Shown piece by piece: positions 5,274 to 25,218 of a stretch of 29,487 nt of DNA. The notes under the pieces were generated by a model. It saw nothing but the letters and a program-made list of their open reading frames with translations, ran no database searches and was not told the DNA's origin. Every line of letters starts with the position of its first letter. Within the stretch, counting starts at the first letter, position 1. The DNA is taken from positions 1 through 29,487 of the IMG/VR virus record IMGVR_UViG_3300050139_000044; one strand, given 5' to 3'. The translations under genes were made by a program, and so were the position numbers. This DNA comes from a virus.

Positions 5274-5304
5274 TTGCATCTTATCGATTTAATTCGTACC
5301 TTTG
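5274..5304 (+). promoter_or_regulatory. Bacteroidota-type promoter P1
   Basis: AACTTGCA at 5271-5278 supplies the -33 TTG, and TACCTTTG at 5297-5304 matches the -7 consensus TAnnTTTG. The two TTG/TA starts are 23 nt apart, the same spacing as in P2 and P3. The ATG of the next gene begins 5 nt after the box, so the transcript should start at or very near the start codon. Confidence 0.8.
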
Positions 5305-5308
5305 TAAA

Positions 5309-5926
5309 ATGAAGGTGGCGAATATTGTTTCAACCAGTAATGTAAAAGTTTCAGATGAATTTAATGTGGTGAAGGCTATGGGTGAAATAATCCATAACCT
5401 TCCGACATTAATCGTAGGGTATGATTATGTAGATAGACACTACCCTAATTTTGATATTACCAATATAAAATTAGGTGAAAACCTTTATTGGACATTTAAA
5501 AGAACCGAAAGACGTGATAAGTTTGAGGAAGATTTGGAATGGTTTAAAACCAAAGTATTTGTCGACCTAACAAAACAAGTTAATTATGTGTTTGTTGACC
5601 CAATACAACAAAAGACACGAGTTCTTTGGAAAATCATTAGAAAAATTGCTAATTTAAAACATAAAATTACGTATATACAAGGTGAAATGGTCTACGTATA
5701 TGGCGATAATCTAATATTCGGAATTGATTTGAAGTTATTACGTTTTATGTCAATGAACATTGACAAAATAAAAGATAAGATAAAACAAATCAGTGATGTC
5801 TTTTTGGATGACGATAAGATACTTATAGAATATAAAAAAAATGTAGGGAAACTTGGTGAACAAGTTAAATACATACCCTTTTTATATTCTATACGAAATA
5901 ATGTTATAAAAACTTGCACTATGTAG
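5309..5926 (+). CDS. Unknown 205-residue protein of the accessory island
   Basis: I do not recognise this family. The protein is soluble-looking, rich in Lys, Asp and Ile, without Cys pairs, signal peptide or membrane helix. It contains a basic, amphipathic middle section (VDPIQQKTRVLWKIIRKI, near residues 91-108) and a charged helical C-terminal third. It has its own host-type promoter (P1), and the ATG at 5309 is only 5 nt past the -7 box, so it is probably translated from a leaderless mRNA. Its last codons contain the -33 element of the tnpB promoter. The shared promoter architecture with tnpB suggests both are expressed early by host RNA polymerase. A partner or regulator of the neighbouring TnpB/array, or an anti-host factor, is possible but is only a guess from position. 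Confidence 0.8.
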   Translation: MKVANIVSTSNVKVSDEFNVVKAMGEIIHNLPTLIVGYDYVDRHYPNFDITNIKLGENLYWTFKRTERRDKFEEDLEWFKTKVFVDLTKQVNYVFVDPIQQKTRVLWKIIRKIANLKHKITYIQGEMVYVYGDNLIFGIDLKLLRFMSMNIDKIKDKIKQISDVFLDDDKILIEYKKNVGKLGEQVKYIPFLYSIRNNVIKTCTM

Positions 5927-5944
5927 AATTTATTAGTATCTTTG
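5914..5944 (+). promoter_or_regulatory. Bacteroidota-type promoter P2 for tnpB
   Basis: AACTTGCA at 5911-5918 and TATCTTTG at 5937-5944 form a consensus -33/-7 pair with the same 23-nt TTG-to-TA spacing as P1. The -33 element lies inside the last codons of the upstream gene. The GTG start of tnpB is 5 nt after the box. With no clear terminator after tnpB, this promoter could also transcribe the repeat array. Confidence 0.8.
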
Positions 5945-5948
5945 TAAT

Positions 5949-7091
5949 GTGAAGTTTAATAAAGCTTATAAATTTAGAATTTACCCAAACAAGTCTCAAA
6001 CTAAATACATTGAGGGTTGTTTTAATGCATGTAGATATGTTTATAATGTAAGTTTAGATTGTGAGAAACAATTATATGATTTAGGCTGTAAATCTAATTT
6101 GTCAGCATTTGGGTTAGGTTATCATTTGAAATTTTATAAAATTTCAACACCATGGTTAAATGAATACGATTCTTTGGCTTTAGAGTTTGAAATGTCTAAT
6201 TTAGCTAGTAGTTATGAAAAATTTTTTAATGGTGGTGGATTTCCAAAATTTAAAAGTAAAAATGATATTAAACAAAGTTTTAGAACTAGAATAAATATTA
6301 AGGTTTTAGATAAAAAAATTAAAATACCAAAGTTAAAAGAACCAATAAAAGCTGTTTTACATAGAAAAATAGAAGGCAAAGCAAAACAAATTACCATATC
6401 TAGAAAAAATGGTAAATATTATGCTTCAGTGATGTGTGAAATTGAAAAAGATATCAAACCAGTTTATATTAGTAAAGAAGTTGGTATTGACCTTGGTATT
6501 AAATCATTTTTGACGATGGATGATGGTAGAAAGGTCTATAATCCATTGTTTTTAAGGAGTGAAGTTGAATATTTGAGTAAACTACAAAGACGATTATCTA
6601 AAGCTAAAAAACAATCTAATAATTATATAAAATTAAAAAATAAAGTAGCCAAGCTTTATGAGAAAATATCGAATAAACGAAAAGATTTTTTACATAATGT
6701 ATCATCGAATTTAGTAAATGAATTTGATAGGATATATATGGAGGATTTGAATATATCTGGATTAACCCGTTCAGCTAAAGGGTCTATAGAAAATCCAGGT
6801 AAAAAAGTTAAACAAAAATCTGGTCTAAACACATCAATACTTGATGTAGGTTTGGGTGAATTTAAGACAATGTTAGAATATAAGACAAAATTTAGCGGTA
6901 AAGAATTGATTAAAGTTAATAGATTTTTCGCCTCAAGTAAAACTTGTTCTAATTGTGGTGAAAAAAACACTAATTTAAAATTATCTGACAGGATATGGGT
7001 TTGTAACAACTGTAATACTGAATTAGATAGAGATATAAATGCTGCTATTAACATTAAAGCAGAAGGTAGACGTTCTTTGATAGAAATATAA
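5949..7091 (+). CDS. tnpB: TnpB-family RNA-guided nuclease (OrfB/Cas12-like), intact
   Basis: The 380-residue protein has the full TnpB plan. The N-terminal YKFRIYPNKSQ motif is typical of OrfB helix-turn-helix domains. RuvC motifs follow: GIDLG (Asp181), YMEDLN (Glu265) and DRDINAA (Asp362). A zinc ribbon with Cys333, Cys336, Cys352 and Cys355 sits between the second and third motifs. Length and residue spacing match functional TnpB proteins, the ancestors of type V Cas12. Such proteins cut DNA next to a short motif, guided by an omega RNA encoded at and beyond the gene's 3' end. No tnpA transposase is present. The start is GTG: an in-frame TAG lies just upstream and there is no ATG choice. 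It begins 5 nt after promoter P2, so the mRNA is probably leaderless. A CRISPR-like array begins 80 nt after the stop. Whether this protein uses that array is inference. Confidence 0.93.
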   Translation: MKFNKAYKFRIYPNKSQTKYIEGCFNACRYVYNVSLDCEKQLYDLGCKSNLSAFGLGYHLKFYKISTPWLNEYDSLALEFEMSNLASSYEKFFNGGGFPKFKSKNDIKQSFRTRINIKVLDKKIKIPKLKEPIKAVLHRKIEGKAKQITISRKNGKYYASVMCEIEKDIKPVYISKEVGIDLGIKSFLTMDDGRKVYNPLFLRSEVEYLSKLQRRLSKAKKQSNNYIKLKNKVAKLYEKISNKRKDFLHNVSSNLVNEFDRIYMEDLNISGLTRSAKGSIENPGKKVKQKSGLNTSILDVGLGEFKTMLEYKTKFSGKELIKVNRFFASSKTCSNCGEKNTNLKLSDRIWVCNNCNTELDRDINAAINIKAEGRRSLIEI

Positions 7092-7171
7092 AAAAGATGG
7101 GCGGTGTAACGTCCAATTTTATTGTTCCGAGATATCTCATTAGAGATATTGTTGACGACAAGAATTTTTTA
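7092..7171 (+). ncRNA. Candidate omega RNA / structured leader between tnpB and the array
   Basis: The 80 nt after tnpB are non-coding and contain a perfect 7-bp hairpin: ATATCTC (7132-7138), a four-base ATTA loop, then GAGATAT (7143-7149). GTCCAA (7111-7116) can pair with TTGAC (7152-7156) outside it, with one bulge. In TnpB systems the guide RNA scaffold covers the end of tnpB and the sequence just past it, and the guide begins where the scaffold ends. Here that join would be the ATTACAAC ending at 7207. A leader or tracr-like RNA for the array is the alternative. The existence of the RNA is inferred. Confidence 0.4.
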
Positions 7172-7509
7172 AATTTAGGTATAATATAAATTAAAAGTAA
7201 TTACAACAACCGAAGTAAGCTCTCGGCTGGGTTCCTAGTTGTTTAATATCTTAATTTTAAAGATGATTACAACAAGGACTGATTCCTCAACTCTTGTTAG
7301 GTGGTTGTTTAATATCTTAATTTTAAAGATGATTACAACGCACCAGATTAAAAAAAGCATAACTGAACTGTTGTTTAATATCTTGATTTGAAAAGTAATT
7401 ACAACTACATACATGAAATGTGATATTATTTAATATCTTAAATTGAAAAGTGATTACAACTACGTGTATTACTACGCTATAATTACTTAATTTTAAAAAT
7501 ATTTACAAC
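7172..7509 (+). CRISPR. Short CRISPR-like array, six repeats, three full-length spacers
   Basis: Repeats 2 (7238-7273) and 3 (7304-7339) are identical 36-mers beginning GTTGTTTAATATCTT and ending GATGATTACAAC. Repeat 4 (7370-7405) matches them at 31/36 positions, repeat 5 (7425-7460) at 30/36 and repeat 6 (7474-7509) at 26/36. Repeat 1 (7172-7207) keeps only its 3' half, whose last 15 nt equal those of repeat 4. Spacers 1-3 (7208-7237, 7274-7303, 7340-7369) are exactly 30 nt and unrelated to each other. Spacers 4 and 5 are shortened to 19 and 13 nt. Each consensus repeat can fold: GTTGT with ACAAC, AAT with ATT, and ATCTT with AAGAT around a 7-nt loop. No cas1, cas2, cas9 or cas13 is present; the only nuclease nearby is TnpB. 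The strand is assumed from tnpB and not proven. Confidence 0.85.
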
Positions 7510-7553
7510 AGCCTCATTCATATTCCATATTTTCAATAATTATTGACTATTTA

Positions 7554-7575
7554 TTCAATAGAAACTTCTATTGAA
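7554..7575. promoter_or_regulatory. Perfect 10-bp inverted repeat abutting a start codon
   Basis: TTCAATAGAA (7554-7563), a two-base AC spacer and TTCTATTGAA (7566-7575) form a perfect palindrome whose last base touches the ATG at 7576. It could be a dimeric repressor operator, or an RNA hairpin limiting ribosome access to the start. The two-base loop is too tight for an ideal hairpin, which favours a DNA operator. There is no T-run, so it is not a terminator. Confidence 0.6.
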
Positions 7576-7977
7576 ATGGATAAAACGATATTATTAGCCT
7601 CATTCATCTTCCCAGAAAGGGTTGATTGGTTTCTAAGTTATCTTGAGGCTAAATTTAGTATAACCAAAGACAAAGTTTTCTGTTATAAAAATCTAGATGA
7701 CGAATCTAAGGTGATTATGACTTTTAAGCTGGCTATTCCAGAAGGTAAGCGTTATAACCTTAAAGAACTATTCCCAAGTGCGATACCAATACATAAAAAG
7801 GGAAACGCCCTATACACCATAAATGCACTCAATAGGCTCATAGACCTAAAGAATGGTGATTCAGTAGGTAACGTTGATAATAAGTCGGTTATAATCGATT
7901 GGAATGAATACCAGAACAAATTACTTCTAACCAATGGGAAAGAATTGTCTTTTTTGACAATTGAACGTGTTTTTTAG
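7576..7977 (+). CDS. Unknown 133-residue protein
   Basis: No family is recognised. The protein starts MDKTILLASFIFPERVDWF and is a compact alpha/beta-looking domain with no Cys pair, signal peptide or membrane helix. It ends with an alternating pattern of strands (SVIIDWNEYQ, KLLLTNGKELSFLTIE). The frame is open further upstream to a TTG at 7543, but I chose ATG 7576: the upstream codons run through the perfect inverted repeat at 7554-7575, and the TTG has no ribosome site. It is the first gene after the array and runs into a group of late-looking genes. It may belong with 8028 and 8228 functionally. Confidence 0.75.
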   Translation: MDKTILLASFIFPERVDWFLSYLEAKFSITKDKVFCYKNLDDESKVIMTFKLAIPEGKRYNLKELFPSAIPIHKKGNALYTINALNRLIDLKNGDSVGNVDNKSVIIDWNEYQNKLLLTNGKELSFLTIERVF

Positions 7978-14515: not shown

Positions 14516-16510
14516 ATGGATTTATCGACAAGCATATTATCGGACATTACTGTCCATATGAAATACGCTAAATTCATACCCGAACTAAAAAGACGAGAAA
14601 CATGGTATGAATTAGTAACAAGAAATAAAGAGATGCACCAAAAGAAGTATCCTCAGATAAAAGATGAAATCGAGGCTGCTTACAAATTAGTATACGACAA
14701 AAAAGTATTACCTTCAATGCGTTCTCTACAATTCGGTGGAAAACCAATTGAAATTAGTCCTAACAGAATTTATAACTGTGCTTATTTACCAATAGATGAT
14801 TGGAGAGCATTCGGTGAAACAATGTTTCTTCTATTAGGAGGTACTGGAGTAGGTTACTCTGTACAAAAACATCACGTTGAACAATTACCAGAGATTCGTA
14901 AACCTAATACCACAAGGAATAGAAGGTTTTTAATTAGTGACAACATTGAAGGATGGGCTGACACTATTAAAACACTTATGAGAGCTTATTTTGAAGGGCT
15001 TTCAACACCAGACTTTGATTACTCAGATATTCGTCAAAAGGGTGCTTTGTTGATTACTAGTGGTGGTAAAGCTCCTGGTCCTCAACCACTTAAAGATTGT
15101 GTTCACAATATTAAAAAAATACTTGATGCTAAAAATGATGGTGATAAATTAACACCATTGGAAGTTCACGATATTGTTTGTTTTATTGCAGATGCAGTAT
15201 TAACAGGTGGTATTCGTAGAGCAGCACTTATTTCATTATTCTCAATGGATGATGAAGAAATGCTTACATCAAAGATTGGCCCATGGTGGGAACTTAACCC
15301 ACAAAGAGGTCGAGCAAATAATTCAGCTGTAATACTTAGACATAAAATTACTGAAGAAAGATTTTTTGACCTTTGGAAAAAAATTGAAGGCTCTGGTTCT
15401 GGTGAACCAGGTGTTTATTTCTCTAACGATAAAGATTGGGGTACCAATCCGTGTTGTGAAATAGCTCTTCGCCCATATCAATTCTGTAATCTTTGTGAAA
15501 TAAATGCTTCAAATATTATATCACAAGAAGACCTTGAAGAACGTGTTAAAGCGGCTTCATTGATTGGTACATTGCAAGCTGGTTATACAAATTTTCATTA
15601 TCTACGTGACGTTTGGAAACGTACAACAGAAAAAGATGCATTGATAGGTGTAGGTATGACAGGTATAGGTTCTGGTACTGTTCTTAAATATGACCTTGAA
15701 GCTGCGGCTAAAGCTGTTATGAAAGAAAATACTAGAGTTGCTAAATTAATTGGAATAAATAAATCAGCAAGAACAACTACTGTTAAGCCTTCTGGAACAT
15801 CTTCATTGGTGTTAGGAACAGCTTCTGGTATTCATGCATGGCATAACGATTATTATGTGAGAAGAATTCGTGTTGGTAAAAATGAAGCTATTTACACATA
15901 TTTGTCAATTTATCACCCAGAATTGATTGAAGATGAGTATTTTAAACCAAAAGAACAAGCAGTTATTTCAGTGCCAGTTAAAGCACCAGAAGGAAGTATA
16001 TTTAGATTCGAATCACCAATGGATTTATTAGAACGTGTAAGGTTATTCAACACCAAATGGGTTAAATCTGGTCATAGAGACGGTCAAAACACTCATAACG
16101 TGTCTGTAACTGTTAGCATAAAGAAAGAGACTGAGAAGGTATCTAAATTGGATGATAACGGCATTCAATTATTAGACAGCAACAGTCAACCAATAATGGA
16201 AGACAGACGTGATTCTGATGGTAATATCATTTACAAGGTAAATGAATGGCCAGCAGTTGGAGAATGGATGTGGGCTAATAGAACAACGTTTAACGGTATA
16301 TCTGTATTACCGTATGATGGTGGAACTTATATTCAAGCTCCTTTTACTGATTGTTCAAAAGAAAAATACGAAGAAATGATGAAATCATTATCTAATATTG
16401 ACCTTACAAAGGTAATAGAAATGACCGATAATACTAATTTATCTGGCGAAGCAGCTTGCAGTTCGGGCGGCTGTGAAATTAACGTTGATGAATTAGTCAA
16501 AGAAAAATAA
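14516..16510 (+). CDS. nrdJ: Class II (adenosylcobalamin-dependent) ribonucleoside-triphosphate reductase
   Basis: The 664-residue protein carries the reductase barrel signatures. IYNCAYLP has the first redox Cys (88). NPCCEI has the thiyl Cys313 and Glu315. FCNLCEIN supplies the partner Cys324, 11 residues on as in the Lactobacillus enzyme. The C-terminus has the shuttle pair Cys648 and Cys653 in ACSSGGC. KPSGTSSLVLGTASGIHAWH matches the RTPR family. It is somewhat shorter than the 739-residue Lactobacillus enzyme. It would convert NTPs to dNTPs using B12 and no separate radical-generating subunit, with or without oxygen. The B12 must come from the host or environment; no cobalamin riboswitch is seen upstream. 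The gene follows the helicase by 17 nt and ends at a strong terminator. No intein is present. Confidence 0.93.
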   Translation: MDLSTSILSDITVHMKYAKFIPELKRRETWYELVTRNKEMHQKKYPQIKDEIEAAYKLVYDKKVLPSMRSLQFGGKPIEISPNRIYNCAYLPIDDWRAFGETMFLLLGGTGVGYSVQKHHVEQLPEIRKPNTTRNRRFLISDNIEGWADTIKTLMRAYFEGLSTPDFDYSDIRQKGALLITSGGKAPGPQPLKDCVHNIKKILDAKNDGDKLTPLEVHDIVCFIADAVLTGGIRRAALISLFSMDDEEMLTSKIGPWWELNPQRGRANNSAVILRHKITEERFFDLWKKIEGSGSGEPGVYFSNDKDWGTNPCCEIALRPYQFCNLCEINASNIISQEDLEERVKAASLIGTLQAGYTNFHYLRDVWKRTTEKDALIGVGMTGIGSGTVLKYDLEAAAKAVMKENTRVAKLIGINKSARTTTVKPSGTSSLVLGTASGIHAWHNDYYVRRIRVGKNEAIYTYLSIYHPELIEDEYFKPKEQAVISVPVKAPEGSIFRFESPMDLLERVRLFNTKWVKSGHRDGQNTHNVSVTVSIKKETEKVSKLDDNGIQLLDSNSQPIMEDRRDSDGNIIYKVNEWPAVGEWMWANRTTFNGISVLPYDGGTYIQAPFTDCSKEKYEEMMKSLSNIDLTKVIEMTDNTNLSGEAACSSGGCEINVDELVKEK

Positions 16511-16606: not shown

Positions 16607-17161
16607 ATGAAAAAAGCTGAAATGATAAATAAAAAATTTGGTAAATTAACACCAATATCAGAACATTCAACAACAAGGAATGGTCATATAAGATATGAGT
16701 GTATTTGTGAATGTGGAAATACAACAAATGTTCTTGGGACACATTTGAGACAAGGAAACACAATATCATGTGGTTGTGCGAATAAAATTGGAAAAGAACA
16801 TAAACAATGGAGTGGTGTTGGTGAAATGTCTGGTGATTTTTGGTATAACCATATTGTTAGAAGTGCTAGTGGTGGTAAAGGTCGAACACCTATTGATTTA
16901 ACGATAACTAAAGAATATGCTTGGGAATTATTCATCAAACAAAATCGTAGATGTCGTCTTAGTGGTGTTGAAATTAAATTCCCGATTAAAAACAAAGATA
17001 CATCATATACAGCTTCACTTGACCGTATTGACTCATCTAATGGTTACATAGAAGGTAATGTACAATGGGTTCATAAAGATATTAATATGATGAAGAGAAC
17101 CTATAATAATGACTATTTCATAAGAATGTGTCAGTTAGTTAACAATAATCAACGTGGATAA
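16607..17161 (+). CDS. HNH-type homing endonuclease-like protein
   Basis: The 184-residue protein has an N-terminal zinc-finger-like part with paired Cys (CICECGNTTN around residues 33-42, SCGC near 60-63), as found in phage HNH proteins with a nucleic-acid-binding head. The C-terminal nuclease part has LDRIDSSNGYIEGNVQWVHK (about 139-158), the variant HNH motif common in stand-alone phage homing enzymes. Such proteins nick or cut phage DNA at a target and promote spread of their own gene. It lies between two terminators, and its 3' end overlaps the next HNH gene by 8 bp. It looks like an inserted cassette rather than a working part of either flanking module. Confidence 0.85.
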   Translation: MKKAEMINKKFGKLTPISEHSTTRNGHIRYECICECGNTTNVLGTHLRQGNTISCGCANKIGKEHKQWSGVGEMSGDFWYNHIVRSASGGKGRTPIDLTITKEYAWELFIKQNRRCRLSGVEIKFPIKNKDTSYTASLDRIDSSNGYIEGNVQWVHKDINMMKRTYNNDYFIRMCQLVNNNQRG

Positions 17162-24609: not shown

Positions 24610-25218
24610 ATGAGAAAATTAACTGAAGAAGAAAAAATAAATAGTGATATTATTAGAAAATTATATAAAAAAGAATATAATAAAAAATGGTGTGAACTTA
24701 ACCCTAATTATAATAAAATATATACAGAAAATAATCTTGATAATGTTAAAGAAAATCAAGAAAAATGGCGTAAAAAGAATAAACCAAAAATAAAAGAATT
24801 AAGTAAAGAATATCGCAAAAACAATCCAGAAAAAGTAAAGAAACTTAAAAATACTTTAACAAAAAAACGTAAAAATAATGACCCGTCATATAAACTTATT
24901 TGTAATATTAGAACAGCTATTGGTTCATCATTAAGGCGAATGAAATATACTAAAAAATCTAAAAGCTATCAAATACTTGGTTGTTCATTTGAAGAATTCA
25001 AACAACATATAGAAAGTCTTTGGGAACCTTGGATGAACTGGAATAATTACGGTAACCCTAAAGATGGAATTATTGTTCCTAACAAAACATGGGATGTTGA
25101 CCATATTATTCCAGTCTCAACTGCTAAAACTGAAGATGATGTGATTAAACTTAATCATTATTCTAATTTACAACCACTTTGTAGTTATCATAATAGATAT
25201 ATTAAAAGATGTAATTAA
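24610..25218 (+). CDS. HNH homing endonuclease-like protein within tail genes
   Basis: The 202-residue protein has a very Lys/Asn/Glu-rich helical N-terminal half (residues 1-95), then a C-terminal HNH core. WDVDHIIPVSTAKTEDDVIK (about 159-178) supplies the catalytic DH pair, and HYSNLQPLCSYHNRYIK the Asn and His. This is the well-known HNH subtype common in phage genomes. It lies in a 615-bp gap between two large structural genes, 4 nt after one and 2 nt before the next. That tight fit suggests insertion at or near a gene end. It is probably selfish rather than structural. Base composition is even more A-rich than in its neighbours. Confidence 0.88.
   Translation: MRKLTEEEKINSDIIRKLYKKEYNKKWCELNPNYNKIYTENNLDNVKENQEKWRKKNKPKIKELSKEYRKNNPEKVKKLKNTLTKKRKNNDPSYKLICNIRTAIGSSLRRMKYTKKSKSYQILGCSFEEFKQHIESLWEPWMNWNNYGNPKDGIIVPNKTWDVDHIIPVSTAKTEDDVIKLNHYSNLQPLCSYHNRYIKRCN

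Follow-up and report, generated by a model that had tools for sequence, protein, structure and literature searches.

A TnpB nuclease and a six-repeat array inserted together in a T4-like phage: a candidate RNA-guided homing cassette

The virus record IMGVR_UViG_3300050139_000044 of IMG/VR, analyzed here over its whole length of 29,487 nucleotides (nt) and referred to as the window, is one fragment, a 29.5-kb linear metagenomic record, in which a gene for a TnpB nuclease is followed on the same strand by an array resembling clustered regularly interspaced short palindromic repeats (CRISPR). Comparison with related phages revealed that tnpB and the array, whose repeats and guides are designated R0-R5 and S0-S5 (Table 1), arrived as one insertion at 5900-7572, and that the last guide, S5, matches the allele of the insertion site that lacks the cassette. 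On balance, we favor reading the locus as an RNA-guided homing cassette, in which a single scaffold RNA would serve several 3' ends that each bear a guide, and the final one of these guides would be directed against the empty allele.

The evidence for a single insertion comes from the neighboring genes. Loci of related phages (52 in total, labeled with L-numbers) were fetched with UvsX as the query, and the junction comparison was limited to loci having both flanks (L034 and L041 are without the downstream gene). In about two dozen relatives, orf5309 either overlaps or directly adjoins the gene that starts at 7576, and neither tnpB nor an array separates them; because the flanking genes abut directly where the insert is absent, tnpB and the array constitute a single insertion, placed between conserved genes and absent from relatives, as would be expected of a homing cassette. 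Only 49 nt separate the left junction from the tnpB start codon; no left end is recognizable, the right end is non-canonical, and the lack of tnpA reported in the sequence-only reading, an earlier annotation of this DNA, extends to the whole window, which thus holds neither tnpA nor the intact pair of ends of an IS200/IS605 transposon. That reading had also named the observation that would speak against it, namely related phages carrying the array without tnpB or the reverse, and none was found in 33 related records except for three TnpB C-terminal pieces. One of these, at 1384-1965 on the minus strand of L057, is a decayed tnpB remnant in a related phage, and tnpB elements have therefore visited this phage group before.

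The match of S5 begins at the first base past R5 and covers the start of the neighboring gene in uninserted alleles, with 0 mismatches in L051 and 1 in seven other distinct alleles. No perfect match to the empty-site flanks was obtained with any of 40,000 control 17-mers (20,000 drawn from the window, with another 20,000 made by shuffling S5), and S0-S4 each had 4-5 mismatches to the same flanks. The cassette-bearing genome has its own copy of the target 24 nt past the right junction, where a synonymous change has turned ATA into ATC; each of the 19 distinct uninserted alleles with isoleucine at this codon uses ATA, and ATC is the rarest isoleucine codon of the window (62/645). At the sequence level, the guide thus matches empty alleles and has one mismatch to its own copy, which is what a homing element sparing its own genome would show. 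Since S5 matches the empty allele of its own insertion site, homing is favored over immunity. As for the other guides, 17-mer scans of viral contigs left S0 with no match and yielded three unrelated contigs with S1 and a single one with S4, while a 15/16 match of S3 to a conserved gene downstream of uvsX in relatives was judged not above chance and is without the 5' context of S5.

The array comprises six repeat units rather than five, with 3' ends at 7207, 7273, 7339, 7405, 7460, and 7509, and therefore intervals of 66, 66, 66, 55, and 49 nt. The sequence-only reading correctly placed it on the tnpB strand at 7172-7509; the exact period of 36-nt repeats and 30-nt spacers that it described extends across R0-R3 and is lost where the intervals drop, and the guide-like stretch at 7510-7526 that closes the array was overlooked. 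The array is beyond chance because two copies, R1 and R2, are identical at 36/36 positions and the remaining copies at 72-86%. Moreover, the final 7 nt, TTACAAC, are identical in six of six repeats while the 5' halves decay, and R1 and R2 are predicted to fold into a hairpin (GUUGU-AUCUUU...AAGAU-ACAAC, z = -2.15). With six units, four of them regular, and unique spacers adjoining an effector gene, the locus has the organization of a CRISPR array. An alternative assignment of S0 as stem 4 of an omega-RNA was dropped, since R0 lies exactly 30 nt from R1 and has the repeat 3' half. No downstream array was detected next to the other TnpB loci scanned (0 of about 170). A virus contig with an MCM-like helicase (L226, positions 2687-2942) has four 39-nt repeats with 71-73 nt spacing directly upstream of tnpB, possibly another TnpB beside an array.

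The repeats are also related to the RNA predicted immediately 3' of tnpB. The loop UGUAA of hairpin I complements UUACA of all repeats and lies at -103 to -99 from the S0 guide; with the preceding G, the loop G-UGUAA occupies -104 to -99, and the G faces -2A. In the ISDra2 omega-RNA, positions -5 to -3 pair with -103 to -105, and -106G lies opposite -2A (PMC10097598), so that the pseudoknot possible in the window is predicted at the position expected for an omega-RNA scaffold. The segment 7092-7207 is 116 nt, equal to the scaffold length of ISDra2 (PMC10097598), and when the 3' region was dinucleotide-shuffled 2000 times, a comparable loop arose in 5 cases. Additionally, six TnpB loci with the loop insertion seen in the window protein, L065-L070, carry a hairpin past the end of tnpB, with loops GGACA, GGACG, or GGAUA that pair with the guide-adjacent UGUC, CGUC, or UGUC, respectively; the two sides covary, and L066 has a compensatory change in the loop pairing. 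A search of Rfam gave zero matches. The earlier link between protein and array rested on adjacency and now appears to go further, given the single insertion and the complementarity of the repeat ends to the hairpin loop 3' of tnpB. This supports the proposal of a TnpB-sized protein using several guides from an array with no adaptation genes. The match of S5 to the empty allele, which the sequence-only reading had not noticed, points to homing more than to immunity.

The product of tnpB is an ordinary TnpB by sequence and fold, not a Cas12 intermediate. Its 380 residues, encoded by a frame that is open across 5949-7091, matched OrfB_IS605, the Cas12f1-like TNB domain, and HTH_OrfB in Pfam, and the complete RuvC nuclease of TnpB size described earlier was borne out: D181, E265, and D362 as well as the zinc cysteines 333, 336, 352, and 355 are all present, C333 being nearly invariant and the other six invariant in two alignments. 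The AlphaFold2 model (mean predicted local distance difference test, pLDDT, of 84.6) had the solved ISDra2 TnpB as its top structural match, and the closest solved relatives by sequence were ISDra2 TnpB and a designed nuclease of the ISDra2 TnpB family, with scores of 202 bits for ISDra2 TnpB, 84 for LaTranC, and <35 for Cas12f. The nearest other TnpB found has about 44-46% identity, none being closer. A match to the Cas12u4 profile was dropped as a sign of a CRISPR effector because ordinary TnpBs that carry this loop reach 264-280 bits, a score which the window protein merely equals, and Cas12u profiles do not set the window protein apart from array-less TnpBs. Judged by bit scores rather than by a tree, the effector does not belong to a Cas12 subtype clade. 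The suggestion that the protein is intermediate between TnpB and Cas12 is thus not upheld; any intermediacy sits in the RNA.

Taken together, these results are consistent with an intron-less cassette of a T4-like phage in which TnpB would be expressed from its own promoter. Transcription past the tnpB stop codon would yield an RNA with one scaffold (hairpin I and the second stem, 7092-7171) followed by six guide-proximal modules, each comprising a stem, a pseudoknot strand, and a guide, that may be separated by processing. Hairpin I could pair with UUACA of any copy: pairing with R0 in cis would give a normal omega-RNA, and R1-R5 might be reached by looping or in trans, like a trans-activating CRISPR RNA (tracrRNA) with a CRISPR RNA (crRNA). 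The R5-S5 guide would lead TnpB to cleave the start of the neighboring gene in co-infecting relatives without the cassette, and when the break is repaired with the cassette-bearing genome as template, both the cassette and the resistant flank would be copied. The genome that already carries the cassette would be spared. The remaining guides may be older or directed at other targets. More tentatively, the array may be a duplicated guide-proximal omega-RNA module, with one hairpin serving six guide ends, that represents a step towards a CRISPR array maintained by its homing last guide; we consider this origin possible.

Several observations weigh against a homing cassette of this kind. No relative carries the cassette, and with a single example, conservation of the element itself cannot serve to check the array or the pairing. 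The pairing is support rather than proof because it was framed after the relatives had been seen, and UGUAA is common in AT-rich DNA. The canonical IS605 right end (stem 4 plus GTTCA) was not found in the window with a covariance model that recovered it in 18 of 20 held-out related loci (24-61 bits); the best score in the window was 12.7 bits, far from tnpB, and the best near tnpB was 7 bits. Likewise, comparison by alignment gave no evidence in the window of GTCAA, the variant that the loop-bearing subgroup has. As the canonical 3' end is missing, the omega-RNA may be degraded. A tracrRNA anti-repeat was sought in and near tnpB, and no duplex with the repeat 3' half exceeded background, leaving the 5-nt loop pairing as the sole scaffold-repeat complementarity seen. 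Targets of S0-S4 were not found above control level in 2.2 Mb of related phage sequence. The match of S5 stops at 17 nt, no target-adjacent motif could be derived, and a single mismatch at position 13 may fail to protect the own copy.

Some of these features would fit a decaying tnpB element with one omega-RNA, in which the right end was duplicated in tandem to give the array, S5 is the recorded insertion flank, the gene start was later restored by recombination, and S1-S4 are never used. The guide of an ordinary TnpB is its insertion flank, so the S5 match would require no array function, and the erosion of R4, R5, and the final intervals as well as the missing canonical omega-RNA end are in line with decay. 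Nonetheless, S5 is followed by sequence other than the native continuation, and an intact native gene start is present farther downstream, an arrangement that would require a second event; in addition, four repeats hold the 36/30 spacing, TTACAAC is kept throughout, and tnpB is open with complete catalytic residues. We regard decay as unlikely, though worth serious consideration. It is rather improbable that TnpB uses a single guide (S0 or S5) and that the array serves a host Cas protein, either as a phage mini-array against relatives, for which the match of S5 to related phages would speak, or as a decoy repeat (RNA anti-CRISPR). Mini-array repeats copy a host CRISPR, and this repeat family was absent from the rest of the window, viral contigs, 33 related phage records, 84,980 species genomes and, at up to 3 mismatches, 395 Bacteroidota genomes, the phage host not being identified; mimicry of a host CRISPR was set aside as improbable on this basis. 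Moreover, the matched site is 24 nt from the insertion point of the array, as would rarely be so for a random protospacer, and the ends of the repeats are complementary to the loop of the scaffold that follows tnpB.

TnpB-derived repressors are known, and the 16/17 match of S5 to the own copy at a gene start raises the prospect of RNA-guided regulation, in which TnpB with S5 would bind the start of its own downstream gene and repress it with little cutting. The RuvC residues are intact, unlike those of nuclease-dead repressors, and an active nuclease would cut its own genome, which makes this explanation very improbable. An assembly artefact, in which a fragment with TnpB and the array was joined to a phage contig, would be conceivable in a metagenomic record of this type; it is scarcely credible here, as the junctions both lie between conserved genes that are neighbors and correctly ordered, and the S5 sequence itself belongs to phage DNA of the insertion site.

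Table 1. Features of the tnpB-array insertion and its target in the window (positions from the first letter of the window).
Feature	Position	Strand	Description
Inserted cassette	5900..7572	+	Left flank CGAAAT and right flank GAAATGG contiguous in uninserted relatives
Promoter-like TTG-N20-TATCTTTG	5914..5944	+	Inside cassette, directly ahead of tnpB; Bacteroidota-type consensus match only
tnpB	5949..7091	+	380 amino acids, GTG start, catalytic and zinc residues intact
Scaffold hairpin I	7098..7115	+	UGGGCG[GUGUAA]CGUCCA; loop UGUAA 7105-7109
Second scaffold stem-loop	7117..7163	+	Layout resembles CUUGU...ACAAG stem of related TnpB loci
R0	7172..7207	+	Repeat unit, 5' half degenerate, contiguous with scaffold
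S0	7208..7237	+	Spacer/guide, 30 nt
R1	7238..7273	+	Repeat
S1	7274..7303	+	Spacer, 30 nt
R2	7304..7339	+	Repeat, identical to R1
S2	7340..7369	+	Spacer, 30 nt
R3	7370..7405	+	Repeat
S3	7406..7424	+	Spacer shortened to 19 nt
R4	7425..7460	+	Repeat
S4	7461..7473	+	Spacer, 13 nt; longer if R5 is taken as a half repeat
R5	7474..7509	+	Repeat, 5' half degenerate, 3' end TTACAAC kept
S5, AGCCTCATTCATATTCC	7510..7526	+	Guide, 17 nt after R5; match to uninserted allele
46-nt tail	7527..7572	+	Hairpin TTCAATAGAAacTTCTATTGAA; ends at junction with native gene
Own copy of S5 target	7596..7612	+	Inside gene starting at 7576; one synonymous mismatch, guide position 13

The tail that separates S5 from the native gene (7527-7572) contains a perfect inverted repeat, TTCAATAGAA/TTCTATTGAA. 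The window has a T4-like gene set, with gp32 identified by Pfam and UvsX, a replicative helicase, and baseplate proteins assigned by sequence and neighborhood, and the relatives of its baseplate-wedge protein include Flavobacterium phages. Promoter-like motifs TTG-N19/20-TAnnTTTG were observed at 5274, 5914, 9089, 9174, and 11955, several directly ahead of genes (orf5309, tnpB, gp32); those preceding orf5309 and gp32 are similar to TTG-N20-TATCTTTG. These motifs suggest a Bacteroidota host, and the T4-like phage probably belongs to that host group. An HNH endonuclease-like open reading frame (ORF; PHROGs) at 16607-17161, between the ribonucleotide reductase and gp25-like genes, is probably a homing gene because it is not at that place in L006 and L046. 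Another ORF, at 24610-25218 in the structural gene cluster, has the HNH-like motif DVDHIIPVS...NLQPLC, and nine stretches resembling it were found in the 362-kb genome of one relative (L234-L247). The adenosylcobalamin-dependent ribonucleotide reductase at 14516-16510 has 25-34% identity to the enzyme of relatives at that place, compared to 72-78% for neighbor genes, which suggests that it was replaced.

Among known systems, the locus resembles ISDra2 TnpB of the IS200/IS605 family in protein family, size, fold, catalytic residues, and a scaffold directly 3' of tnpB, as well as in the predicted pseudoknot, which joins nucleotides next to the guide to a segment lying about 100 nt upstream (PMC10097598). 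It differs in that the window has no tnpA, no recognizable left end, and no stem-4/GTTCA right end, and has six guide ends instead of one. Pairing of TnpB with an array is not in itself new, since associations between TnpB and CRISPR arrays are inferred to have arisen independently about 50 times (PMC12669027) and virus-encoded TnpBs near arrays have been reported (PMC12607003). Like these and the type V-U associations, the window has a TnpB-sized RuvC nuclease beside an array in a virus with no adaptation genes; unlike them, its repeats complement a local scaffold and the guide at the end of its array matches the insertion site as found in empty alleles, and profile scores do not part its protein from ordinary TnpBs. 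TranC is a TnpB-like nuclease described as a transposon-CRISPR intermediate. The window protein has a fold similar to the LaTranC structures in PDB and a sequence far nearer to ISDra2 (202 vs. 84 bits).

The delocalized homing crRNA of type V-K CRISPR-associated transposons (CAST) has a 13-nt repeat piece and a 17-nt spacer (PMC12719977), and R5-S5 is like the homing crRNAs of V-K and I-F CAST in having a degenerate partial repeat and a short guide to its own attachment site, beside an array (PMC12719977; PMC11656645). Unlike CAST, which moves by transposase, the cassette would move by nuclease and recombination. T4-like phages commonly carry free-standing endonucleases inserted between conserved genes (PMC2988022), and the cassette is like seg and mob genes in its position between conserved genes, a target in the adjacent gene, and a proposed spread by break repair with co-conversion of the flank (PMC2988022), with the difference that an RNA guide would specify its target. 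Gene drive by TnpB has been demonstrated for plasmids, in which copies without the element are cut by the guide recorded at the insertion site (PMC11870625); that system is a single-guide insertion sequence with no array (PMC11870625). What appears to be new is the proposed descent of the repeat from the local omega-RNA end, together with the terminal homing guide, and, if the proposal is true, phages can home with an RNA-guided nuclease, a single protein gaining many targets. Two routes from TnpB omega-RNA to type V arrays have been hypothesized, duplication of a condensed guide module and a split into tracrRNA and crRNA (PMC10097598), and an unmodified TnpB with one scaffold and six guide ends would offer a direct test case for the origin of arrays, including the duplication route.
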